32,875 bases of DNA, taken from the IMG/VR virus record IMGVR_UViG_3300043773_002196, positions 1 to 32,875 of that record; one strand, 5' to 3'. This stretch comes from a virus. This document shows, piece after piece, positions 2,863 through 32,664 of the stretch. The notes under the pieces are model-generated. The model was given only the letters and a program-made list of their open reading frames with translations. It made no database searches and had not been told where the DNA came from. Position 1 is the first letter of the stretch, and every line of letters starts with the position of its first letter. A program made the position numbers and the translations under genes.

Positions 2863-3149
2863 TGCCGCTACACGTTATCTTCGCGATCGCTGGACCTCTG
2901 ACCGGCTTCATTCTCTCCGTCATCCTGTATCTCGGTAAGAGAAACCTTGACGAGATGACCAACACCTTGAGTAAGGTGCAACACACACTCACCGAGCTGC
3001 GTGTGGAGATTCCTAAGTCCTACGTGACCAAGGAGGAACTACTCTCCCACATGCACGCCGAAGAGCAGTGGCACAGCCACATCACCCAACAACTTCGCGA
3101 CATCCGCGAGGAAATCTCGTCAGTCCGGGACTGGACCCACCGATCATGA
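2862..3149 (+). CDS. Small membrane-anchored coiled-coil protein, 95 aa
   Basis: Residues 1-23 form a hydrophobic N-terminal helix (MPLHVIFAIAGPLTGFILSV), and Lys-Arg directly follows it. The rest is a charged coiled coil with L-R-V-E-I-P-K-S-Y-V-T-K-E-E-L. This plan, one membrane span then a 'lP..YV.k.el' helix, resembles small phage membrane proteins often found near holins and lysis genes, although no lysis gene is visible here. I chose ATG 2862 (TGATG overlap) rather than the GTG one codon earlier. The end overlaps the next ATG as ATGA. It could be a holin-like or superinfection-related inner-membrane protein; this is uncertain. Confidence 0.6.
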   Translation: MPLHVIFAIAGPLTGFILSVILYLGKRNLDEMTNTLSKVQHTLTELRVEIPKSYVTKEELLSHMHAEEQWHSHITQQLRDIREEISSVRDWTHRS

Positions 3150-3820
3150 ACCTTGAAGACTACGATTTTGATCGCCTCCTCGCGCTGGGTTACACCGAGA
3201 AGGCTACCGGCGACCTGAAGGATGCCTGCTGGAAGGGTTACACCGCTGTTGGTCTGAAGAAGAAGGGTGGCCGCACTGTTCCAAACTGTGTGCCCATCAA
3301 AAAGAGCAAGTCTGACCACGCCGAGGAGATGAAGCGTAAGCCACTTATCGCCGGTCCGAGTGCCGGTTCACCGTCCTTTGGTGAGGGCAAGGGGACTGGA
3401 AAGCCATGTGGTGGCTCGCATATTTCGGCCAATAAAACCTGTCACGTTGGTGGTAGTGCCGGATACAAGGACGTGACCGAAGCCATCAGGGCTGACATGG
3501 GAAGCTCCTTCGATGACGCGCATGAGAAAGTGTTTGAGGAGCGCTACGCCAAGGCCAAAGACACAAAGGATCTGGGTCGTATTCACAAGAAAGCCATCAA
3601 GGATCTGGACAATGATGACCTTGATGCTAAAGAGGGTGTCCTCAACGCTATGAAAAAGGCCATGCAAGCTCACCTCGAGGTGAACATGGCGAGCGGTCAG
3701 GGCGCCAAACGTGAGGCGGAACTCGCCGCGATGACCCCTGAGGAGCGTGCGAAGGCTCGTTCGGCGGACGCCATTGAGCGAGGGATCAAGAACAAGGTCG
3801 TCTCCGGGAGAATGCGCTGA
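3146..3820 (+). CDS. Phage protein with ACWKGYxAxGxKKKGGRxVPNC motif, 224 aa
   Basis: The start at ATG 3146 (ATGA overlap) is preferred over an upstream ATG at 3068, which would bury most of the preceding gene. The N-terminus MNLEDYDFDRLLALGYTE is followed by the element ACWKGYTAVGLKKKGGRT ending VPNC (C-x19-C). This element recurs in many phage proteins, including virion and head-associated ones, but its function is unknown to me. A second cysteine pair follows (KPCGGSHISANKTCHVGG, C-x10-C). The C-terminal half is charged and helical (AKDTKDLGRIHKKAIKDL...). There is no enzyme motif. It lies in the middle of the cysteine-pair cluster, so a virion-internal role is plausible but inferred. Confidence 0.7.
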   Translation: MNLEDYDFDRLLALGYTEKATGDLKDACWKGYTAVGLKKKGGRTVPNCVPIKKSKSDHAEEMKRKPLIAGPSAGSPSFGEGKGTGKPCGGSHISANKTCHVGGSAGYKDVTEAIRADMGSSFDDAHEKVFEERYAKAKDTKDLGRIHKKAIKDLDNDDLDAKEGVLNAMKKAMQAHLEVNMASGQGAKREAELAAMTPEERAKARSADAIERGIKNKVVSGRMR

Positions 3821-4180: not shown

Positions 4181-4933
4181 ATGTTAGGACATTTCTCTCC
4201 AGAAGCCCTCCGCGCATTTGCTGAGGCACTCGATTTAGATACCGGAAATCAAGACTTCTCCGAAGGAGTGTTCGATTTTAAGGTATGCCAGAAACCTGAT
4301 GGGAAGCATTATGGAGTGTCAGACAATGACAGGTGCGCTCCGCCGGCTAAAGAAGTTTCTAATAGACCTGGGGGAGGTTTTCTAAACCTCCAAGCAGGCA
4401 AGGGAATCAATTATGATACCGCCAAAGGTCAAGGTGACGCCAAGACTATGGCAAAAGCAGAAAAAGAATACTTAAAATGGCGACACTTGGGTGATAGCCA
4501 CCAACAAGCTAAAGACAAAGCTCTTAGGTCTTTTCCGGGAACCTGGGAAGACATTATGCCAAAAGCAAAAGGAATGTATGAAAGGGCTCAAAGCAAAGTC
4601 AAAGCCTCTAATGTACTAAAGCAGTCTAATGAGCCTATGGTTAGGCCAGGGGCAAAGACGGCTGTTGTAAGCCCAACTCCAAAATCTGGGCGTTCTGACT
4701 ATGAGGCAATTGTTAGTGACTTGCAAGAAGCTCGCAAAGGGATTATTCGATCTATTTCTCGAGAAGCGACGTGGGATTCGGAGAGTGACCCAAGGCGCTT
4801 AGAGGCCATACGAGAAGTAAAAGCCTTAATGAAACCCCAAGTTGATGAAATTACAAAAATGGCCAAATTCACACCTGAACAACGACGTCAAGCTTGGGAG
4901 GAAATCTCTCAAGGAATCGAGAGCAACCTCTGA
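4181..4933 (+). CDS. Hypothetical protein with N-terminal peptide and Cys-pair motif, AT-rich gene
   Basis: The 250-aa protein begins MLGHFSPEALRAFAEALDL, then carries a C-x15-C element (VCQKPDGKHYGVSDNDRC), a clear variant of the cysteine-pair motif. The rest is helical and highly charged, with YLKWRHLGDSHQQAKDKAL and a C-terminal helix KFTPEQRRQAWEEISQGI. No catalytic residues are recognisable. Lines counted by hand within the gene are 35 to 48% G+C, against about 60% in the start of the next gene, and AGG, AGA and TTA codons are frequent. The gene may therefore have arrived from another genome. It stops two bases before the next ATG. The N-terminal peptide, kept despite the different composition, suggests that the peptide is functional. 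Confidence 0.65.
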   Translation: MLGHFSPEALRAFAEALDLDTGNQDFSEGVFDFKVCQKPDGKHYGVSDNDRCAPPAKEVSNRPGGGFLNLQAGKGINYDTAKGQGDAKTMAKAEKEYLKWRHLGDSHQQAKDKALRSFPGTWEDIMPKAKGMYERAQSKVKASNVLKQSNEPMVRPGAKTAVVSPTPKSGRSDYEAIVSDLQEARKGIIRSISREATWDSESDPRRLEAIREVKALMKPQVDEITKMAKFTPEQRRQAWEEISQGIESNL

Positions 4934-4935
4934 TC

Positions 4936-5535
4936 ATGAACACTTTCAACATCCCCTCAGTGGACCACCTCATCGAGAGCGTTCACTATCGCGTCGTCGA
5001 CTGGTCCTTTGCCGAAGGACGCGACCGCGGCCTAGAGACCAACATGCCAGGCCGTGGCGCACCATCCACCTTTGCCGAAGAGTGTGGCCCTGATGAAAAG
5101 ATGATCTTTGGTATGTGTCGAAGCACCAAAACCAACCCCAAAGACGATAAGGACTTCGACTCCTCCAAGAAGACAAAGCAGGAGGAGGAAGGTGAGGCTC
5201 AAGCTAAGAAAGAGGGCTCTGAGTTCAAGAACAATAAGATGATCAAGGATGTGAAGTCCGGTAAGAAACTTGGTTGGGCAATGAAGGATGGTAAGCCTGT
5301 ATTGGTGGAATGGGGATCTGTAGCTGGAGAAAAGAAAGTCGGTTCGAAGAAGCCCGAAGCGAAACCCCAAGGCGGTGGTGGTGGCGGTGGAGCTCAGGCG
5401 CCCAAGCCACAGTCATCGGCTCAGCCTCCAAAGCCAAAGGAAAATAAGGATGAGGCACCAAAGCCGGGCGACCTCCTTCAGAAGGAGCGTCAGGAACGTG
5501 CTGATGCTTGGAGAAAGGGCGGGCAGGCAATGTAA
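4936..5535 (+). CDS. Low-complexity protein with Cys-pair and GWAxKDGKPVLVEWGS motif
   Basis: The true start is taken as ATG 4936 (MNTFNIPSVDHLIESV), just after the previous stop; a longer frame from 4894 only overlaps that gene. The 199-aa product has a C-x10-C element (EECGPDEKMIFGMCRSTK), then a Lys/Glu-rich stretch. A short conserved-looking block, KKLGWAMKDGKPVLVEWGSV, follows. The remainder is a disordered tail rich in Lys, Pro, Gln and seven consecutive Gly. Its TAA overlaps the following ATG (TAATG). No function can be assigned. The architecture, a small folded block in disordered linkers, matches its neighbours. Confidence 0.6.
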   Translation: MNTFNIPSVDHLIESVHYRVVDWSFAEGRDRGLETNMPGRGAPSTFAEECGPDEKMIFGMCRSTKTNPKDDKDFDSSKKTKQEEEGEAQAKKEGSEFKNNKMIKDVKSGKKLGWAMKDGKPVLVEWGSVAGEKKVGSKKPEAKPQGGGGGGGAQAPKPQSSAQPPKPKENKDEAPKPGDLLQKERQERADAWRKGGQAM

Positions 5536-6677
5536 TGATAGGTAGTTTCTCAGAGGAGGCACTTCAGGTTCTGGATTTCGTGCGTTGCGAGCGTCCCAAT
5601 GGAACTGCGTATGGAACTGCGGGAACCTGCCGTAAAGGGGTCGAGAGCGCTGTAGAGACCAAAAAGTACAGCTGGGGCTCCACGATGAAGGTGTCGGGAG
5701 ACGGCGACAGTGTCGTCCTCCACGATGACAATCAAAGTGCCATTGGCAAACTCGCTGACGGTGAGAGCACAACCTTCAGAGCGGATAGTGGGGACAAATG
5801 GACCGCCACTCGCAAGGGCGATACTGTGGAGTTGCAGTCGGGCTCACAGAAACTTTCAGTCAGCCACTCGAGATTCGACCAGGGTGACTCCGATGAGGCC
5901 CCTAAGCCAAAAGCGGAGCCCAAGGCGGAGGAAGCTCCCAAGTCATCTCCTAAAAAGCCGAGAGAGGAGAGCTTCGAAAAAGGTGGTACCTTTGAGGGTG
6001 ATTCAACCAAAATCACTGGAGGGCCTGGAGCCGATGCTGTCAAGAGACAGATCGACCACGCCAAAATGGTGATGGAGAAGTACCCCGACATGGCGGACTC
6101 CATGAAGGGTGAGCTTGAGAAGAATCTGAAGCAGTTGGAGCCCTTCCAAAATAGCCAAAGAGTCCTTGATAGCATCGTCGCCAATGTCCCAGCGGGAACA
6201 ACTGTTAGGGTGACCCCAATGGGCACAATCCAGACAGAATTCACGACGCCCGGCGGAAACGTCGTCAGCACGACATTCGGTCGAAACAGCTTCAACTTCG
6301 AGGTGAATGGCACCTACGAGGCCGGAACGGTGACTCAGGGCCGAAAGGAGGAGATGGCAGTGGCGAGGCAGGTACAACGTTGCTTCAACGCCGTTCTGGG
6401 TTCCCTTCCTGAGGGTTATGTCATGCGAACGTATGCCTACTCCGAGGACGGTAAGGGCGCCTCCAGACAAAGGGCGTACGAGAAGATGGGCTTCTCTAAG
6501 GCGACTCCAGGGGAAAACATCTACGGCAGGCTCAAAGACGGCGTGCTCGTCCCTTCAACAAAAGAGGAGCAGAGTAAAACTGACACAATCCTCTCATTCT
6601 CCGAGGTTGTTGGCCCTAATTCCATGGCTTTATGGTATGTGGCCATCTTCGGAAAAGACCCACGGGTAAAACCTTAG
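5535..6677 (+). CDS. 380-aa protein: N-terminal peptide, Cys-pair, possible GNAT-like C-terminal domain
   Basis: The protein starts MIGSFSEEALQVLDF and runs directly into CERPNGTAYGTAGTCRKG (C18-x13-C32), nearly identical to the motif in the 705-aa kinase-like protein. Residues 35-110 look beta-rich, then comes a Lys/Glu/Pro-rich linker. The C-terminal half contains ARQVQRCFNAVLGSLPEGYV, RTYAYSEDGKGASRQRAYEK and MGFSKATPGENIYGRLKDG. The 'R-A-Y-E-K-M-G-F' step resembles the last strand and helix of GNAT acetyltransferases, but I cannot identify the acetyl-CoA loop, so this is tentative. ATG 5535 is chosen over an upstream in-frame ATG at 5508 that overlaps the preceding gene. The coding end contains GGGTAAAA motif 2. 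Confidence 0.65.
   Translation: MIGSFSEEALQVLDFVRCERPNGTAYGTAGTCRKGVESAVETKKYSWGSTMKVSGDGDSVVLHDDNQSAIGKLADGESTTFRADSGDKWTATRKGDTVELQSGSQKLSVSHSRFDQGDSDEAPKPKAEPKAEEAPKSSPKKPREESFEKGGTFEGDSTKITGGPGADAVKRQIDHAKMVMEKYPDMADSMKGELEKNLKQLEPFQNSQRVLDSIVANVPAGTTVRVTPMGTIQTEFTTPGGNVVSTTFGRNSFNFEVNGTYEAGTVTQGRKEEMAVARQVQRCFNAVLGSLPEGYVMRTYAYSEDGKGASRQRAYEKMGFSKATPGENIYGRLKDGVLVPSTKEEQSKTDTILSFSEVVGPNSMALWYVAIFGKDPRVKP
6664..6671 (+). promoter_or_regulatory. GGGTAAAA motif 2 (putative late promoter)
   Basis: This exact octamer overlaps the last codons of the preceding gene (R-V-K-P-stop) and lies 21 bases before the ATG at 6693. A second, looser copy (AGTAAAAGT) follows about 10 bases on. It is the only motif embedded in coding sequence rather than at or after the stop codon. 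Promoter function is inferred from the shared position upstream of unit-leading genes. Confidence 0.55.
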
Positions 6678-6692
6678 TAAAAGTACTTCCCA

Positions 6693-7379
6693 ATGCGCAA
6701 AGATTCGATCGCCGACGCCGCGCTTAAGCAGGCGTATGAACTCTACAGTTACTCAGAACGCGGCTTCCACGGCACTGGAATCGACGCAGAGGATGTGCCG
6801 GTGCTTGCCCCTCAGGTGAGCAAGCTAAAGAAAGAAGATAAGCCATGGGAGCCTAACTCGGCCTTCTACGGCAATCAGCCACGTGGCAGTGGCCCTCCGA
6901 CCTTCAATTATGGTGAAGAGCAAGGCACAGGCGAGTACAACTCAATGCAAGCTGAGCTGACCGGCCTTATGGACATTCAGGAGCGTCTGAGTGGCCAGCT
7001 TCGTCGTGCCCGTCAAATGGGCAACTTCCAGGAGGAGCACCGCATCGTCAAGGAGCGGAATCAGATCCTGAAGGCGATCTCGGCCGTGGAGGCCAAGATG
7101 ATGGTGAACGATCTCGGCCGTACTCAGCGTGGCATGAACAATGGCATGATGTATGAGTCACAAAATCACCAAGAGGAGGCCAACCCCTTTCGTGATTACG
7201 CCGAGGCCATCAACGAAAATGACGAGAAGATCGCACGTCTCGAGGAGGCCCTTCTGCGGTTTGCCGAGCTAAAGTCTGCTGGTGGTGACGCCGGCGCTGA
7301 CCCTGGTCAGTCCAACTCCCTCGAGGACGAGGAAGATTCCGACGACAAGGAAGACGAAGAGGAACTTGGTGAAGCCTGA
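6693..7379 (+). CDS. Coiled-coil protein with acidic C-terminus, 228 aa
   Basis: The N-terminus MRKDSIADAALKQAYELYSY ends in the 'A-L-x-x-A-Y-E' pattern of the shared N-terminal peptides. About residues 85-160 form a strong coiled coil (MDIQERLSGQLRRARQMGNF..., then IVKERNQILKAISAVEAKMM). A second helix lies near residues 170-195, and the last 25 residues are almost all Asp, Glu, Lys and Ser. It is the first gene after GGGTAAAA motif 2. Its TGA overlaps the ATG of the kinase-like gene (TGATG), so the two are probably translated together and may form a complex. I do not recognise a family; a scaffold-like or adaptor role is inference. Confidence 0.65.
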   Translation: MRKDSIADAALKQAYELYSYSERGFHGTGIDAEDVPVLAPQVSKLKKEDKPWEPNSAFYGNQPRGSGPPTFNYGEEQGTGEYNSMQAELTGLMDIQERLSGQLRRARQMGNFQEEHRIVKERNQILKAISAVEAKMMVNDLGRTQRGMNNGMMYESQNHQEEANPFRDYAEAINENDEKIARLEEALLRFAELKSAGGDAGADPGQSNSLEDEEDSDDKEDEEELGEA

Positions 7380-9496
7380 TGGACGAGCAGGACTTTTACG
7401 ACTTTCGGCGCTGTGTGCGCCCAAACGGAACTGCTTACGGCACGGGCGGCCAATGCCGTAAAGGTGATGAGCAAGGCCTTTCTCAGCGAGTAGGGAAGAA
7501 GTTTCTAGCCCAAGCGACCACACAAAAGCTTGAGGATTACGCTAGACGTGCTCCTCATAAGTATCAGCGTGATGCCATTAAGGCCGAATTGGCCCGTCGT
7601 GCCGGGAAACCGGCATCAGGTCCTGCTGGAAGTAAGCAAAAGCCCAAACCTCTAGATGGTCCCACTAATCGGGCTCTTCAACGTGAGAAGGACAAGTTAA
7701 GCAAGGAGCAAAAGGTTCTTCAAAAAGAGTTAGACGCTCTCATTGCTCAGCGCGATGGTGGAGCGCCTGATAAGAAAGACAAACTCTCAAAGCAAATCAA
7801 CGCTGGATTCCTTGCCAAAGCTCCAAAAGAAAAGCTTGAAGAGTATCTAAAGCGTGCTCCTCACAAATATCAACGGGACCGGATTCAAAAGGCTCTCGAC
7901 GAGAGGGCAAAGATGGATGCTGGGAAAGCTGATAGTGTTCCCCCAGGGCTTAAGCTTGCAGCCAGGTGGAATTTGGAGGCCCGCAAGGAGAACGTGACCC
8001 CGTCCGCTATACGGAAGGAGGCTGCAGCCATTGAAGCTCGGCAAAAGGGCCAAGATCAGGAAGCAGCGAAACAACAAAGCAATAGCGTCAAAGCTAAAAA
8101 TCTGCCTCCCGCTGATTCCAAACTCTTCCGAGGGCTTAATCCGAAGGATCTCGACGATCTCGAGAAGAACTACATTAAGGATGGTAGCCCCGAGGCTATG
8201 GTGAGGCTGGACGCTTTGCGAAGGGAGAGAGCCCGACGTGCGGGGCAGGCCGATCAGCAAGCTCAAAGGAAGGCTCAAGCTGCTGGGGCTCCCGATCCCA
8301 AGTGGGGCAAGTACGGTGACGCCCAACTTCGCAATCAACTCCAAGCTGCGAAGAACCTTGGGAAGGACGCTATGGCAAAGGAAATCGAAGCCGAGATTAA
8401 AAGGCGAGCCAAGGCGAATCCCGCAGATCCCGGCAAATGGAAGAAGTGGGGCGACGAGGAACTTCGTGATCAACGCAGTGTCCTCATTCGTCAGGGAAGA
8501 GCGGGTGAGGCGGGTGACGTCGAAGCTGAGATGGCAAGGCGTGGACTCTCTAAACGTCCATTAGGTCCTGCAGGCCTCCCTCAGAAAGTGAGTAAGTGGA
8601 CTCACGAAAACATGGTGAGGCTCGACGAGCGTGTCGAGAGTGACACCCAGATGCAGATGGGCAAGGAGGATTTCGTCTGGGGCAACTCGCTCAAGAAGGG
8701 AGCTAAACTCCTTGGAGAGGGCGCTTACGGCACGGCCATCGCGGACAAAAACGACGTGGTTGTCAAGCGCGGAACTGTCGGTGAGAATGAGGCGAAACTC
8801 ATTGAGAGACTCGGAAAAGTTGATCTTGGGCCTAAGCTGATCGCCGCGCAGTATGATGGTCCTGGTTACGAGAGAGGTACTCACAATGGCCGCATCGCCA
8901 TGACACGAGTCCCTGGCTCACCAATTGGCAAGAAGAAAGGTGACGAGCCAGTCGGTAAGACTGGTAAGGTTGTTTCTGATGTCTATTGGGAGGCCCGAGC
9001 CAAACTTCACCGTATGGGCATCGCTCACAACGACATGCACATCGAAAACGTCTTCATTGATAGGAATGGAAACGGTCGCTTTGTGGATATGGGCTTGGCC
9101 CAAGCTGGTCCTAAGGCGGCACTCGCCGAGGCCATGGGAGTATTCACCCGAGTTCCTCAAGGGGCTATTAGGAGGGGCGGCTCCGACGCTGGAGATTGGC
9201 AAGTTCGACGTTGGGACGGTACTGCTGGAAAGGAGATGGTGAATGCCGAAATGTCCACCAGTCCAGCAGCAAGGGCGGAATTCGCTCGGAGATTTCCGAC
9301 TGCCTCGAGGGTGCTTCAAAACAAAGAAAAGGCTATATCTAAGCTGAAGAGTTTTGGCCTCACCGATCAGGATGTGGCCGACGTGATTTCACACGGTATC
9401 CGCACTAAAGAAAGTTCCTTTAGTAAGCGTGGTATGGGCAAACTCACTGACGCTCAAGCAAAGCAAGTTATCGAGGTTCTTTACGATGGCATCTGA
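7379..9496 (+). CDS. Protein-kinase-like protein with Cys-pair motif and helical repeats
   Basis: This 705-aa protein begins with FRRCVRPNGTAYGTGGQC-RKG (C12-x13-C26). It then has about five helical repeats of 35-40 residues, two very alike (residues 40-76 and 142-180, both with (L/Y)-x-(R/K)-R-A-P-H-K-Y-Q-R-D), and three looser ones near 240-390. Residues about 430-600 match the protein kinase fold: glycine loop LGEGAYGT (445-452), VVK463 in strand 3, catalytic loop H550-N-D552-M-H-I-E-N557, and D570-M-G metal-binding loop. All key catalytic residues are present, so it is probably active, perhaps on host proteins like T7 gp0.7, although it is unrelated in layout. The activation segment is short and the C-lobe atypical. 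Substrate is unknown. Confidence 0.8.
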   Translation: MDEQDFYDFRRCVRPNGTAYGTGGQCRKGDEQGLSQRVGKKFLAQATTQKLEDYARRAPHKYQRDAIKAELARRAGKPASGPAGSKQKPKPLDGPTNRALQREKDKLSKEQKVLQKELDALIAQRDGGAPDKKDKLSKQINAGFLAKAPKEKLEEYLKRAPHKYQRDRIQKALDERAKMDAGKADSVPPGLKLAARWNLEARKENVTPSAIRKEAAAIEARQKGQDQEAAKQQSNSVKAKNLPPADSKLFRGLNPKDLDDLEKNYIKDGSPEAMVRLDALRRERARRAGQADQQAQRKAQAAGAPDPKWGKYGDAQLRNQLQAAKNLGKDAMAKEIEAEIKRRAKANPADPGKWKKWGDEELRDQRSVLIRQGRAGEAGDVEAEMARRGLSKRPLGPAGLPQKVSKWTHENMVRLDERVESDTQMQMGKEDFVWGNSLKKGAKLLGEGAYGTAIADKNDVVVKRGTVGENEAKLIERLGKVDLGPKLIAAQYDGPGYERGTHNGRIAMTRVPGSPIGKKKGDEPVGKTGKVVSDVYWEARAKLHRMGIAHNDMHIENVFIDRNGNGRFVDMGLAQAGPKAALAEAMGVFTRVPQGAIRRGGSDAGDWQVRRWDGTAGKEMVNAEMSTSPAARAEFARRFPTASRVLQNKEKAISKLKSFGLTDQDVADVISHGIRTKESSFSKRGMGKLTDAQAKQVIEVLYDGI

Positions 9497-9647
9497 CGAC
9501 AAGAAGTACATCGCGCTGATGGACAAATACAAACTCAACCGGCGAAGTGATCCGCAAGGTGCCATGAAGTACCTTGATGCGGCTCTCGCTCTAGCTGATA
9601 AGGGCAATGTGAGTGAGGACGCCATCGCCGGCGGTGCTTATCTTTGA
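9486..9647 (+). CDS. Conserved small phage protein, 53 aa
   Basis: The frame from ATG 9486 (MASDDKKYIALMDKYKLN) overlaps the end of the kinase-like gene by 11 bases and is preceded by GAGG about 10 bases upstream, an acceptable ribosome binding site. The sequence is three short helices (YIALMDKYK, GAMKYLDAALALADKG, VSEDAIAGGAYL). Small proteins with this pattern (KY-x-A-L-x-x-K-Y ... AMKYLDAA) occur in cyanophages immediately before large structural genes. Their role is unknown. A longer in-frame start at 9429 exists but lies wholly inside the kinase-like gene. Confidence 0.75.
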   Translation: MASDDKKYIALMDKYKLNRRSDPQGAMKYLDAALALADKGNVSEDAIAGGAYL

Positions 9648-9705: not shown

Positions 9706-12700
9706 ATGGCCGTCCGGATCACACTCAAGCGTTCCAGCATCTTCAACAAGCGCCCCACTCCTGACTTATTGGATCCGGGCGAACTGGCACTGAACACCAA
9801 CGCGCTGTCCCCAGGTCTGTTCTTCGAGACCGAGAACAATCGTGTTGTCAAAGTGGGTCCGACGGCAGTTGGCACTGAATATCCCACTCCCTTCCCCTCA
9901 CTGGGGGAAATGAGCTACAATCCGGTCAACAACTCGCTCAGTATCGGCGATGTTGACCCTGAAACCGCAGCGCAGGTATGGCGTGAGATTTCCGCACCCT
10001 ACCTCGGTGGAACAAACGGATACGTGGTGTTTATTGCGCCCGAGTTTCCGACATCCAACGACGACCTCAAGAATGACGGTCAGTCGGCACCCTACAAGAG
10101 CCTTAACCGGGCCGTTCTTGAGATCGCGAAGCAGTCGATCGTCAGACAGAACGAGTCGGACGCGTACCAGAATAACCGATACACCATCTTTGTTCAGCCT
10201 GGCACCAACACCGTGTTCAACGGTCCGGGCAAGTCCATCGCCACAACTGCAGACCCAGAGGGCGCTTTTGGTGTCAACTTTGATGTGTCTCCTGACGTCA
10301 ATCCTGACATCCTGACTGAGTTCAACCCTGTGACGGGTGGTCTAATTGTCCCACGTGGAACAAGCATTCAGGGTCTAGACCTGAGGAAAACCATCCTCGC
10401 CCCAACCTACGTCCCTACTTTCAAAGTTCCCGGCAGTTCACTCGGCACCAACGAGCCCATCACGTCCATTCTGAAGTGGACAGGCAACTCGTACGTCACC
10501 GAACTGACATTCAAGGACAAGCCGTCAGTTGCACTTGTCAACAAGTTCGGCACCTACAAGGACACCAATAGCGCTGTCTTCTACAGCATCCAACCCCACG
10601 GTTTCGCTGCCAACGACAAAGTTTTCTTCGAGTACTCTCCAGGAGCCAACCGCATCCCCACCGGCACTGGTCAGGTAGAGGTTCTCAGTGGTGACTACTA
10701 CGCATACCCGCTGTCTGTCGACAGCTTCCTTTTGTCGTACACCCCAATCACCGCTGAGACTGCAAACTACGTTGAGCGCGCTCAGCTGCCCGCTGACAGT
10801 CAAGGTCTTGCCTTCACTTGCTCAGTGACGTGGAAACCCTACTCTCACCACCGCTTGCGTTGCTTCAGCAGTGCAAGTCTGGAAGAGATGAACGAATTCT
10901 ATCAAAAGGTTCAGGCTGCTTTCCCGACGTACTTCGATGGCAAGCGTAACCAAGCTGAGGTGATCAACCCAGGTGAGACAGAAATTGTTGCACCGACTCC
11001 CAATATCATCCCTAGCCTCATTTCAAACAACAACCGTCAGGGTTCTCCCTACGCGTTTAATGTGTCGCTTCGCTCTTCCTACGGTCTTTGCGGGGCAGAG
11101 GCAGATGGTCGAATTGTGACAGGATTTAAGTCGTCCCTATTCTCTCAGTTCACTATCGCTTCGATTCAAAACGACCCGTTTGTTTACGAAGTTTACACCA
11201 CAATTTACGACAACACGACCCAGAAGTCGGTGACCACGTGGTACCCGCTTCCCGTCGCGACATGGGCTTCCATTGACAATATCAATCGCCCAGACAATGC
11301 CTGGCTCGTCCCAGCAGAGCAGATGCTCGCTTACTTGAACGAAGTCCCAGTTATCAACGTTCGGTACGCCTACACGAGCCAAGTCTCCCCTGATAACAAA
11401 ACTTACGGTCTTCCCGACCTCGATAACGACTACCGTCACTTTGGCATTCGCGCTTCGAACGACGCTTACGTGCAGGTGGACACAGCGTGGACTGTGGGAC
11501 CAGCCGTCGGTTTCTGGACGTTGAACGGCGCTCGCATGTCGGTGACAAACTCGACATCGAACTTCGGATCGACTGCTGTCCGCACTGAGGGTTTCGCTGG
11601 AATCGGAACACTTGGCGGCGCACTTCCTCAGGACCAGGGCTTCCGCTTTGGCGGCATTCGCATGCCTCTCAAGCTGACTCAGTACGGTGTGGCGAATTTC
11701 AACCTCTACTCACTCGGCGTGGCGGTGAAAGAAGTGACCACAGACCTCACCACAGGGGTGCAAACTGTGCTAGTGGGACCTGGTTTTGAGCCCATCACAC
11801 TTCTTCCTTACTCCCTAGCTCCAGGCACTGCGCTCTGGATTCAAAGTTCAATCTTAGAATTCCGTGGTTTCTTCGTTGACGACGGTCTCCCCACTGCAAT
11901 CTTCCTGCCCAATGGGGATTGTCAGCTTCGTCTGCGTTACGAAGACTCTACTATTCCAAATGGTGGACCTGATGTAACAAATGCTTGGGACCCACCGTTC
12001 ATTAAGCGTTTCCAGGATCCTCGGACTGTGATGGAGCAGTCTTACGCTCTTATCCTTGACAACACCACTCCTGGTCACCGCGACCCGATTTCCGGCAACA
12101 TTCTGCGTCTCCAACAGACTTCGAACAACAACAATCAAGCGCTGACAGTTCGTCCTGGTGTGCAGTTCGACCCTGGGCAGACTGGTGGTTGGGGCCGTGT
12201 GTTCCAGGTCGCTTTCTCACAGTCCTCCTCTGATGGTGACGCACCTCAGTACAACGAGACACTGCTCAACCGAGTCATCTCCACATCATACTATACGGCC
12301 CTCCTCGCTGTGGACAATAGTCGTCCGTGGTTGGAGACGTACGATAAGCCTCACGGTGCCTACGTAACATTCCAGAACCGCAACTGGTACGCTACCTGTA
12401 ATGATCAGTGGAACGGGGTGTATTTCTCCACATCCATTGACGCACAAACCGCCAAAAAGCTCATCCCAACCAGCTACGTTTCTCCGTACGCCAACACCTT
12501 GTGCCTGGAGAACCAGTATGAGGTTAATAGCACTTTCCAAGGCCAGTTTGGAGGAGATCCCACTGCGGCACTATACAAAGATGACACATATTTGAGAGGA
12601 TCCTCGCCAGCCAGAGCCAATTACGACTTCTCCGACTACTATAACGGCGACAATGGGTCGACCAATTTTGGTCTTCTCCGCAATGACATCAATGCTGGAC

Positions 12701-14226
12701 TGAGCGTAGCTACTACCCAAATTCTAAAACCTACTGAAAAGACAATTTACTTCCAGAGTATTGCTCAAATCTCTAATCTTGCGAATCCCAAGAAAACCTT
12801 TGTTGTTCTCGCTCTAACTAACGATTCCCTCTCAGGTAAAAAAGAGTATGTCCAGGTCATCGCCTGGAATCCGACGGACAACTCTGCGACCGTGATTCGT
12901 GGTCTGTACGGAACCACCGTCAATTTCGATTGGCCGATTGGCTCTCTCGGAGCACTTCAAGCTACCAACACCACGGTGAATCCACTCGACTACGACCTCG
13001 ATTGGGCACCCACGAAGTACGCGATGATTCGCTTCCTTCAGGTGATGGGCTACTCCGATGTGGACATCCAGACACTACTTCAGCCACAGTCGCCATCCTC
13101 ACGGAACCGCCAGCTGGCGAACATTTCCATTCAACCGAAAGGCGGCTACGCGCTCAACACAGGCCCCTGGAACATGGAGTTTAACCTCCCAAGTTCCCTA
13201 AACTGCGCCTTCCACCAGTTCTACAGCGTTGGCTACTTCAACTACTCTCGCGGACTTCCAAAGTATCTCGAGAGCAACCTTAACACCAAGCAGTATTACG
13301 ACTTCATCTCGACTGCGATGTGGGGTGGCTACTTCACTCTGTTCGGTCAGAACGAGTACGGAAGCACCATCGTTGAGGGTGAGCTGACTCAGGCACTAAC
13401 CGGTCGTCCCTACGGTTCACTCTCTTCCGACATCACCAACTTCCCACGCTACAAAGTGGACCGTCGACAGGACGAGGATGAGCAGTCCTACGTTCGTGTG
13501 GTTGACACCGGAGACGGTCTGACCGGTGGTCCTATCACCGACATCGGGTCCATTTCATTGCTTCCCGCCACAACGGGAAGTCTAGGCGGTGTCATCGTTG
13601 GTGATTTCTTATCCGTCACCCCCTCAGGTGTGCTGAGCCTCGATGCTTCTCGTGTGGGAACAGTGCGTGGTGTCACTGCTGGCATTGGCCTTGGCGCTCC
13701 AAACACTGGCAATACCATCACTGAGACGGGAACAATCAACCTTCTGCCTCCAACTGCCACAACAATCGGTGGCGTTCTCGCTGGTGAGGGAGTCCAAATC
13801 AGCATCAGTGGTGTGCTTGGTCTCAAACCACCAACTGTTAGCACACTCGGCGGCGTGAAGCCTGGTCCTGGTGTTGACGTGTCTCCTGAAGGAGCACTCG
13901 TTCTCCTGCCCCCCACCGCGACACAGATCGGTGGCGTGAAAGCCGGCGCTGGAATTGTCATCGACCCAGACGGAACAATCAAGCTAGCAGACGGTCCTTC
14001 TGGCGTAGTTCGGATTGACCCGATCACGTTCGACGGGACTCGAACCGACTTTCAGCTCCTTTCTGGCGGTCAACCTTTCACCCCAGAAAACAGCACCTAC
14101 CTCCTCGTCGTTGTTGGCGGCATCACTCAGCCGTCTCCAGACGCCTACACCGTCAACGGCTCCACCCTCACCTTCACGAACGCTCCGCCCGCTGGAGCCT
14201 CCTTCTACGGCATCGCCTTCCTCTAA
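9706..14226 (+). CDS. Large virion structural protein / tail fibre, 1506 aa
   Basis: The N-terminus (LKRSSIFNKRPTPDLL...PGELALNTNALSPGLFFE) is an attachment-type domain shared with the 14281 protein and common in cyanophage structural proteins. It is followed by a segment (NDGQSAPYKSLNRAVLEIAK...) typical of the start of pectate-lyase-like beta-helix fibres, then about 1,000 residues of beta-rich sequence with few charged repeats. Near residue 1265 begins a series of Gly-rich repeats: GLTGGPIT..G-(S/T)-I-x-L-(L/P)-P, then (L/I)-GGV-x-x-G-x-x-(V/I)-x-(I/V)-(S/D)-x-(D/E)-G. The C-terminus is the recurrent domain FDGTRTDFQLL...LLVVVGGITQPSP...APPAGASFYGI. A receptor-reaching fibre or baseplate-attached structural protein is the likely role. 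The gene heads a unit with motif 3 and is alone before motif 4. Confidence 0.8.
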   Translation: MAVRITLKRSSIFNKRPTPDLLDPGELALNTNALSPGLFFETENNRVVKVGPTAVGTEYPTPFPSLGEMSYNPVNNSLSIGDVDPETAAQVWREISAPYLGGTNGYVVFIAPEFPTSNDDLKNDGQSAPYKSLNRAVLEIAKQSIVRQNESDAYQNNRYTIFVQPGTNTVFNGPGKSIATTADPEGAFGVNFDVSPDVNPDILTEFNPVTGGLIVPRGTSIQGLDLRKTILAPTYVPTFKVPGSSLGTNEPITSILKWTGNSYVTELTFKDKPSVALVNKFGTYKDTNSAVFYSIQPHGFAANDKVFFEYSPGANRIPTGTGQVEVLSGDYYAYPLSVDSFLLSYTPITAETANYVERAQLPADSQGLAFTCSVTWKPYSHHRLRCFSSASLEEMNEFYQKVQAAFPTYFDGKRNQAEVINPGETEIVAPTPNIIPSLISNNNRQGSPYAFNVSLRSSYGLCGAEADGRIVTGFKSSLFSQFTIASIQNDPFVYEVYTTIYDNTTQKSVTTWYPLPVATWASIDNINRPDNAWLVPAEQMLAYLNEVPVINVRYAYTSQVSPDNKTYGLPDLDNDYRHFGIRASNDAYVQVDTAWTVGPAVGFWTLNGARMSVTNSTSNFGSTAVRTEGFAGIGTLGGALPQDQGFRFGGIRMPLKLTQYGVANFNLYSLGVAVKEVTTDLTTGVQTVLVGPGFEPITLLPYSLAPGTALWIQSSILEFRGFFVDDGLPTAIFLPNGDCQLRLRYEDSTIPNGGPDVTNAWDPPFIKRFQDPRTVMEQSYALILDNTTPGHRDPISGNILRLQQTSNNNNQALTVRPGVQFDPGQTGGWGRVFQVAFSQSSSDGDAPQYNETLLNRVISTSYYTALLAVDNSRPWLETYDKPHGAYVTFQNRNWYATCNDQWNGVYFSTSIDAQTAKKLIPTSYVSPYANTLCLENQYEVNSTFQGQFGGDPTAALYKDDTYLRGSSPARANYDFSDYYNGDNGSTNFGLLRNDINAGLSVATTQILKPTEKTIYFQSIAQISNLANPKKTFVVLALTNDSLSGKKEYVQVIAWNPTDNSATVIRGLYGTTVNFDWPIGSLGALQATNTTVNPLDYDLDWAPTKYAMIRFLQVMGYSDVDIQTLLQPQSPSSRNRQLANISIQPKGGYALNTGPWNMEFNLPSSLNCAFHQFYSVGYFNYSRGLPKYLESNLNTKQYYDFISTAMWGGYFTLFGQNEYGSTIVEGELTQALTGRPYGSLSSDITNFPRYKVDRRQDEDEQSYVRVVDTGDGLTGGPITDIGSISLLPATTGSLGGVIVGDFLSVTPSGVLSLDASRVGTVRGVTAGIGLGAPNTGNTITETGTINLLPPTATTIGGVLAGEGVQISISGVLGLKPPTVSTLGGVKPGPGVDVSPEGALVLLPPTATQIGGVKAGAGIVIDPDGTIKLADGPSGVVRIDPITFDGTRTDFQLLSGGQPFTPENSTYLLVVVGGITQPSPDAYTVNGSTLTFTNAPPAGASFYGIAFL
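13501..13995 (+). repeat. GGV-type beta repeats in the 1506-aa fibre
   Basis: Four tandem copies of a 25-45 residue Gly-rich unit are visible: SLGGVIVGDFLSV, IGGVLAGEGVQIS, LGGVKPGPGVDVS and IGGVKAGAGIVID, each ending in a turn such as P-x-G or PDGT. The unit recurs in at least seven other genes of the window. A 20-base exact match (13954-13973 and 15052-15071) shows that relatedness is still visible at the DNA level. Confidence 0.7.
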
Positions 14227-32097: not shown

Positions 32098-32664
32098 ATG
32101 ACCTTTTTGGAGCCTCAATGGGACTCCATCTTCTCCTCCTTCATCTTTTCCTTCGTGCTCCCGTCGGAGATTCAAGATCAGATCATGAGTGAGTGTGTGT
32201 CCCTGCGTCAAACTGGCTTAAGGGGCGTAAAGAAGAGCAATCTTGGAGGCTGGCAGAGCGACTTCATCGAGGATCGTGGACCCGGCATCACTTACCTCAT
32301 CGACAGCGCTACGGCGTTTGCTCGAGAGGTTGTGACGCCAAACCGAAATCTTGAGTCCCTCGCTTACAAAATCTTGAGTCTGTGGGTTAATTTCAACTCC
32401 GCCTCGGATTTCAATGAGCCCCACACTCACGGTGACACCAAGATAACTGGTGTTTACTATGTTAGGGTTCCCCAAGGAGCTGGGGAGCTATGCTTGATCC
32501 GTCCAGACCACAATCCCATTTTTCCTTCAGAGGACACCACTCTCAGATTGGTTCCCCAACAGGGGCGAGTCTACCTCTTTCCAGGCCACCTCATTCATTA
32601 TGTATTGGCCGGAGACAAAAGTCAAACTGAACAGCGTGTATCAATCGCCTTTAATATGGTTTAG
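32098..32664 (+). CDS. 2OG-Fe(II) oxygenase superfamily protein, 188 aa
   Basis: The protein matches the putative 2OG-Fe(II) oxygenase family common in cyanophages. Iron-binding candidates are H109 and H111 in NEPHTHGDTKITGVYYVRVP, and H164 or H167 in GRVYLFPGHLIHYVLAG. The likely 2-oxoglutarate-binding Arg180 lies in RVSIAFNM. Its reaction would use O2 and 2-oxoglutarate to hydroxylate a substrate, which is not known for these phage enzymes. Upstream, LGGWQSDFIEDRGPGITYLI is the usual N-terminal block. Start ATG 32098 faces the minus-strand gene. There is no GGGTAAAA motif upstream, so it is probably not in the same expression class as the fibre genes. Confidence 0.85.
   Translation: MTFLEPQWDSIFSSFIFSFVLPSEIQDQIMSECVSLRQTGLRGVKKSNLGGWQSDFIEDRGPGITYLIDSATAFAREVVTPNRNLESLAYKILSLWVNFNSASDFNEPHTHGDTKITGVYYVRVPQGAGELCLIRPDHNPIFPSEDTTLRLVPQQGRVYLFPGHLIHYVLAGDKSQTEQRVSIAFNMV

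Follow-up and report, generated by a model that had tools for sequence, protein, structure and literature searches.

A likely virion-borne kinase of an S-CBWM1-like cyanophage and its exchangeable N-terminal cysteine modules, candidate head-loading tags

The phage kinase gp0.7 of T7 is made early in the infected cell and is thought to reprogram the host. In cyanophages, kinases and NMN adenylyltransferases (NMNATs) have repeatedly been found in the virions themselves, with carry-over always possible. For S-CREM2 gp14, a homologue of the kinase analysed here, proteomics of virions gave 21 unique peptides (PMC10665884); kinases in the virions of S-CRM01 and S-TIM5 are cited in the same paper, as are APH, ChoK and Rio2 kinases together with an NMNAT for S-CBWM1 virions (the NMNAT also in PMC9602691). 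Its authors concede that proteins may be carried through CsCl purification. The virions of S-CREM2, S-CRM01, S-TIM5 and S-CBWM1 thus set precedents for a kinase carried by a cyanophage particle, which in itself is not a new finding; a preliminary description of this locus, which held that a kinase delivered with the DNA would be a novelty, was anticipated by reports of cyanophage virion-associated kinases from 2011 on. In T4, the first ten residues of internal protein IPIII suffice for loading (PMC9026906), and cleavage behind a Glu residue is known for the head proteases of T4 and of giant phages (PMC5694885). The kinases of polyvalent proteins have been described as being without the C-terminal subdomain (Iyer et al. 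2017, PMC5512222).

The kinase gene described here lies on a virus record of 32,875 bases, a metagenomic fragment analysed at its full length (the window). Its source is most likely a Synechococcus phage of the S-CBWM1-like (Aokuangvirus-like) kind: the tail-fibre gene (9706-14226) has its nearest match in S-CBWM1 (35% over 85%), and the large terminases of S-CBWM1 and of a syntenic relative (L008) are 55% identical. The kinase gene overlaps a gene at either end:

6693..7379, plus strand: coiled-coil partner gene, overlapping the kinase start; homologues stand directly upstream of kinases with each of three module types (M1, M2 and M3)
7379..9496, plus strand: kinase gene, 705 aa (open reading frame, PHROG and tblastn matches, predicted fold)
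9486..9647, plus strand: 53-aa partner gene ending in AYL, overlapping the kinase end; its position after the kinase is conserved in both metagenomic relatives and T4-like cyanophages

The coiled-coil partner of the preliminary description is therefore borne out by the neighbourhoods of related kinases; the conserved small gene at 9486-9647 had been missed. Scans for promoters and terminators gave no more matches than in shuffles. Elsewhere in the window, a glycosyltransferase with a DXD motif (1345-2133; PF04488, E 2.6e-14) lies upstream of a cluster of tagged genes, and a 2OG-Fe(II) oxygenase of a kind common among cyanophages is encoded at 32098-32664 (PHROG 81, E 2.2e-27).

The kinase domain contains the following elements:

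8603..9493, plus strand: kinase domain, residues 409-705 (AlphaFold2 and fold searches)
8711..8734, plus strand: glycine loop LGEGAYGT, residues 445-452 (residue check, 27-domain alignment)
8765..8767, plus strand: ATP-binding Lys463 (VVK), invariant in 27
8789..8791, plus strand: alpha-C Glu471, invariant in 27
9026..9049, plus strand: catalytic loop H550-N-D552-MHIE-N557 (His, Asp and Asn invariant)
9086..9094, plus strand: metal-binding D570-M-G572 (Asp and Gly invariant; no APE motif behind)

Every core residue named in the preliminary description was found where it had been placed, and an alignment of 27 kinase domains, 27-93% identical to that of the window kinase, shows no variation at G, K, E, H, D, N and D-x-G; the invariant Glu471 had gone unnamed. 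Structure prediction and fold searches, the check proposed at the time, gave a kinase-like fold (AlphaFold2 model of the domain, pLDDT 93.3, pTM 0.91), and the homologues keep the catalytic Asp and Asn; neither a fold unlike kinases nor homologues lacking these two residues, the outcomes then named as contrary, was seen. The motifs follow in order within a two-lobed kinase fold, as in the protein-kinase-like fold superfamily. PHROG 18305 'kinase' matches the protein with E 8.6e-8, and tblastn searches of annotated phages recovered kinases in 14 records, all from Synechococcus phages, at 27-36% identity (E 7e-16 for the S-CRM01 kinase). The top six matches in the viral structure library BFVD are all cyanophage kinases: three of S-CBWM1 and one each of S-H34, S-TIM5 and S-CRM01 (entry F5B400, assigned to that kinase because it has 821 aa). 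A sequence search against solved structures yielded nothing beyond weak hits in the region of the catalytic loop (E of 0.005 or higher). The window protein is certainly a kinase as far as its fold is concerned and, judging by its conserved residues, very likely an active one. The kinase domain is under purifying selection: compared with the nearest relative (L005), its dN/dS is 0.085, and that of the preceding part is 0.178. Fusions to the Mu F head protein among distant relatives demonstrate that a minor head protein can include such a domain, which would suit a pseudokinase serving as a structural head protein; however, none of Lys, Glu, His, Asp, Asn and Asp-x-Gly varies among the 27 diverged sequences, and with so low a dN/dS we consider this reading highly improbable.

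The substrate is a separate question. No APE motif was found within 75 residues behind DMG in the window kinase and in 24 of 26 relatives, the two matches being stray SPE triplets, and the activation segment of the window kinase does not end as in Hanks-type kinases; the enzyme is therefore atypical, and its substrate class is left wide. It could as well act on small molecules, and a virion-carried kinase of aminoglycoside, choline or sugar type, rather than a protein kinase, is a serious if unlikely alternative: relatives match Pfam APH with E 5.7e-7 to 1.8e-4 (L027 and L017 above the cut-off, the window protein at E 0.14) and weakly Kdo, and S-CBWM1 relatives are annotated as APH- and ChoK-like. 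Conversely, the best Pfam match of the window protein is Pkinase (E 1.2e-4, under the gathering score), and the solved structures that align best are eukaryotic protein kinases (STK10, Z 9.5 over 192 residues with rmsd 4.1; AAK1, 9.4; MYT1, 9.3), neither of which settles the substrate. RIO kinases have the metal loop IDxxQ, without Gly; as all 27 domains have DMG, DFG or DLG, this family has no support as a direct relative. The HipA fold was not among the best 50 structural matches listed for the window kinase; HipA kinases thus gain no support as direct relatives either, although absence from such a list is no proof against them.

Between the N-terminus and the kinase domain, the preliminary description had counted five helical repeats, of which two pairs stand and the middle one is doubtful, resembling only repeat 1:

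7487..7606, plus strand: helical repeat 1 (z 17 against repeat 2)
7793..7912, plus strand: helical repeat 2 (z 17 against repeat 1)
8117..8248, plus strand: possible repeat 3 (z 4.8 against repeat 1; no likeness to the other repeats)
8297..8416, plus strand: helical repeat 4 (z 11 against repeat 5)
8435..8554, plus strand: helical repeat 5 (z 11 against repeat 4)

The Cys pair C12/C26 noted earlier at the start of the protein does lie at the true N-terminus, since an in-frame stop stands a few codons upstream of the ATG. It belongs to a short module that also occurs, in variants, on other genes of the cluster:

7412..7465, plus strand: Cys module M1 of the kinase (C12-VRPNGTAYGTGGQ-C26-RKG), proposed virion-loading tag (module searches; in-frame stop just upstream)
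3068..3820, plus strand: cluster gene with an M2 module (GKPCGGSHISANKTCHVGG), FGE before the module
4181..4933, plus strand: cluster gene with an M1-like module (C36/C52), FSE before the module
4894..5535, plus strand: cluster gene with a shorter Cys pair (ECGPDEKMIFGMCR)
5508..6677, plus strand: second M1-tagged gene, module C27-C41, FSE before the module (module pattern)

An acetyltransferase-like part is suspected in the product of 5508..6677, for which the structure model is of low confidence (pLDDT 58; four sequences). A further conserved cluster protein (2164-2862, also in L005, L007 and L008) has four close cysteines (EGCSCGTCASCR) and belongs to no known family.

Three patterns describe the modules: M1, C.RP[DN]G..YGT.G.CRKG, the type of the window kinase; M2, GKPCG.SFI.....C, which takes the place of M1 on the kinase orthologues of L007, L008 and L011; and M3, KRC.KGKSCGATCI....C, on the kinases of L012-L014 and L018-L020 and on three S-CBWM1 kinases. 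Across all loci, which overlap so that the matches are not independent, coding strands gave 192 pattern matches, and neither the opposite strand nor shuffled ORFs gave any. M1 occurs in 43 viral loci and at one place in 84,980 species genomes (a 50-kb bin fragment); in annotated phages, a tblastn search with the M1 motif alone found S-CBWM1 and one chance match, so the modules are rare among isolates, and M2 gave weak matches only, probably by chance. Mapped onto the kinase tree, M1, M2, M3, CTS and MuF as labels require 9 changes. The M2-type kinase of L008 falls in one clade with the M1-type kinases of the window, L005 and L006 (95/92); outside this clade support is moderate, and some of the branches are long. 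The modules are thus exchangeable, one replacing another on orthologous kinases. Downstream of M1 and M3, the sequences sort into 28 groups that show no detectable likeness to one another (the largest, with 50 members, may be chained by coiled coils); recognisable among this cargo are kinases, NMNATs (PF01467; L016 and S-CBWM1 gp39) and, in 4 of 34 scanned, ADP-ribosyltransferases (PF03496, best E 1.4e-14), M1 cargo including both of the latter enzymes. One M1-tagged ADP-ribosyltransferase, of the T4 Alt-like enzyme class, is encoded at L038:4326-5378 (E 1.9e-14). Two arrangements of M3-tagged kinases were also observed: five tandem kinase genes with a module on each, on a cyanophage-like contig (L018:4004-11338), and a 1462-codon ORF with three successive kinase domains behind a single module, the first with a clear glycine loop (L020:6840-11225).

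A triplet [FYL][SA]E, of the kind that head proteases cut, precedes M1 by no more than ten residues in 41 of 77 instances, which are not independent, vs. 2.5% of control windows; the window kinase itself has no FSE-type site upstream of its module. In one ORF (L041:8352-9923), M1 occurs twice, and a Glu-ending site (FFE|G) closely precedes the second copy, as though a single polypeptide were cleaved to yield two tagged proteins. Rather than loading tags, the modules could be sites of redox chemistry or metal binding, or they could make contact with a shared scaffold partner that has a different role. M2 is alignable to M3, but the first and third Cys of M3 are missing together and the other two are kept, as expected for two disulfide pairs, and what ties the module to packaging is indirect. 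Nevertheless, the modules cap unrelated proteins, swap on orthologous kinases and occupy the position that a targeting-like sequence has in T4-like homologues, and we find the redox, metal or scaffold reading doubtful relative to a role as loading tags.

A link to the virion comes from S-CBWM1, where exactly seven ORFs bear a module (gp39, gp106, gp113, gp161, gp162, gp165 and gp174). All four of the virion enzymes named in print (RIO-, ChoK- and APH-like kinases and the NMNAT) are among them; by counting alone, the probability of four out of four among 7 of 178 proteins is 9e-7, which is a guide only, as the kinases are paralogues and the four names come from second-hand, partial citations of the virion list. 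Module-bearing gp174 carries the annotation of a virion structural protein; the PknB-like kinase gp173 lacks a module. In the S-CBWM1 record (MG450654.1, at 70398 and 117830), the starts of gp113 and gp161 are annotated too late, and the longer frames include M3. The S-CBWM1 coat protein has no obvious T4-like propeptide.

The T4-like cyanophage homologues of the kinase start with VKRFDAFLTE, MISFDQFLSE or similar, like T4 IPI (MKTFKEF...ITE), with a poorer fit in S-H34 and MA01. In S-CREM2 (OR473000.1), L073 and L074, the virion SAM hydrolase, the kinase, gp13 and the cytidylyltransferase have MKxFxxFLxE-like starts, and the virion Cas9-like protein has FASFMAEA near its start; these are likely T4-type capsid-targeting sequences. 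The window kinase starts with MDEQDFYDFRRC, which is not of the T4 type (an MKxFxxFLxE-like propeptide cut after Glu). In distant relatives (L021, L023, L024 and L027), the kinase domain stands at the end of a Phage_Mu_F head protein (E down to 2.4e-17). The packaging-like N-terminus proposed in the preliminary description thus has good indirect support from the S-CBWM1 modules, the targeting-like starts, the Mu F fusions and the S-CREM2 virion kinase (PMC10665884), and delivery with the DNA is a further step that we infer. By homology, the window kinase belongs with the cyanophage virion-associated kinases, and it is likely a virion protein, with strong indirect support for its loading. Its presence in the particle could still be incidental if its targets were phage structural proteins and it acted at a late stage within the producing cell: in relatives, the kinase lies between the terL/PhoH side and the tail-fibre genes, in the late structural region, and CsCl carry-over is conceded for the virion preparations (PMC10665884). 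However, the T4-like homologues sit among DNA-metabolism genes and yet have a targeting-like N-terminus, and the distant relatives are fused to a head protein, so that late action appears improbable to us.

The gene trio of coiled-coil protein, kinase and 53-aa protein is conserved. The 53-aa gene, which is below the usual gene-size cut and overlaps the kinase stop, stands behind the kinase in at least 13 viral contigs; by tblastn it occurs in 11 records of annotated phages, all with the kinase and adjoining it where looked at, and it is present in S-B68 too. A small AYL gene lies behind the kinase in S-CREM2, S-CRM01 and S-H34, and S-CBWM1 gp114, behind the kinase gp113, is by eye a likely homologue. 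In T4-like phages, the 53-aa homologue has a targeting-like start of its own, and S-CREM2 gp13 was represented by one peptide in virions (PMC10665884). The 53-aa protein may be a co-loaded cofactor, or an inhibitor silencing the kinase until delivery. In the open-access literature searched, which falls short of the full literature, we found no description of the module system or the small partner; these are the new parts of the finding.

Taken together, we favour as fairly probable an explanation in which an S-CBWM1-like cyanophage encodes an atypical protein-kinase-like enzyme that is competent for catalysis. During head assembly, this enzyme would be directed into the virion by its N-terminal M1; it would then enter the host with the DNA and at once phosphorylate a host component. 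The coiled-coil and 53-aa proteins would be made together with the kinase and probably help to load it or hold it inactive until delivery. An injected effector acting on host proteins is plausible; the injection, the host substrate and the roles of the partners are the conditional steps. More broadly, M1, M2 and M3 would be exchangeable head-loading tags of S-CBWM1-like cyanophages, unrelated to the T4 targeting sequence, that fill virions with varying host-takeover enzymes (kinases, NMNATs, ADP-ribosyltransferases and many uncharacterised proteins), the kinase travelling with a dedicated small partner; for this wider proposal we see the chances as evenly balanced. If it is true, a short sequence predicts the loaded proteins, which is a testable rule; the injected enzymes of uncultured phages could be listed from sequence alone; a small tag for putting proteins into phage heads would be at hand; and the 53-aa partner and many tagged proteins are singled out as candidate takeover factors.

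Compared with known systems, the window kinase shares a homologous kinase domain with the cyanophage virion kinases (S-CREM2 gp14; S-CRM01_130, 'PKN8'; S-CBWM1 gp113, gp161 and gp162; S-TIM5), at 31-36% identity to those of S-CREM2, S-CRM01 and S-CBWM1 gp113, and the small AYL gene behind the kinase is shared with S-CREM2, S-CRM01, S-H34 and probably S-CBWM1 gp113. The starts differ: T4-like members have a T4-like targeting sequence and the S-CBWM1 kinases M3, whereas the window kinase has M1 followed by helical repeats. T7 gp0.7, which the preliminary description had cited as a known phage kinase, has no support as a direct relative, as its PHROG was matched weakly by S-CBWM1 gp162 only and not by the window kinase. 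As with the T4 capsid targeting sequence and internal proteins (IPI-IPIII, Alt), a short N-terminal element stands on unrelated proteins, ADP-ribosyltransferases are among the cargo and Glu-ending protease-type sites are close by; loading has been shown in T4 and is proposed here, and the modules, Cys-paired and of 12-20 residues, have no sequence likeness to the T4 element and usually stand behind a possible cleavage site, not before it. In polyvalent proteins and Mu F fusions (PMC5512222), as here, phage-borne kinases, ADP-ribosyltransferases and other effectors are linked to head proteins, and distant relatives of the window kinase are themselves Mu F fusions; the cargo consists of separate tagged proteins here but of one giant polypeptide there, and the window kinase, in contrast to the polyvalent kinases, has a helical C-terminal part.
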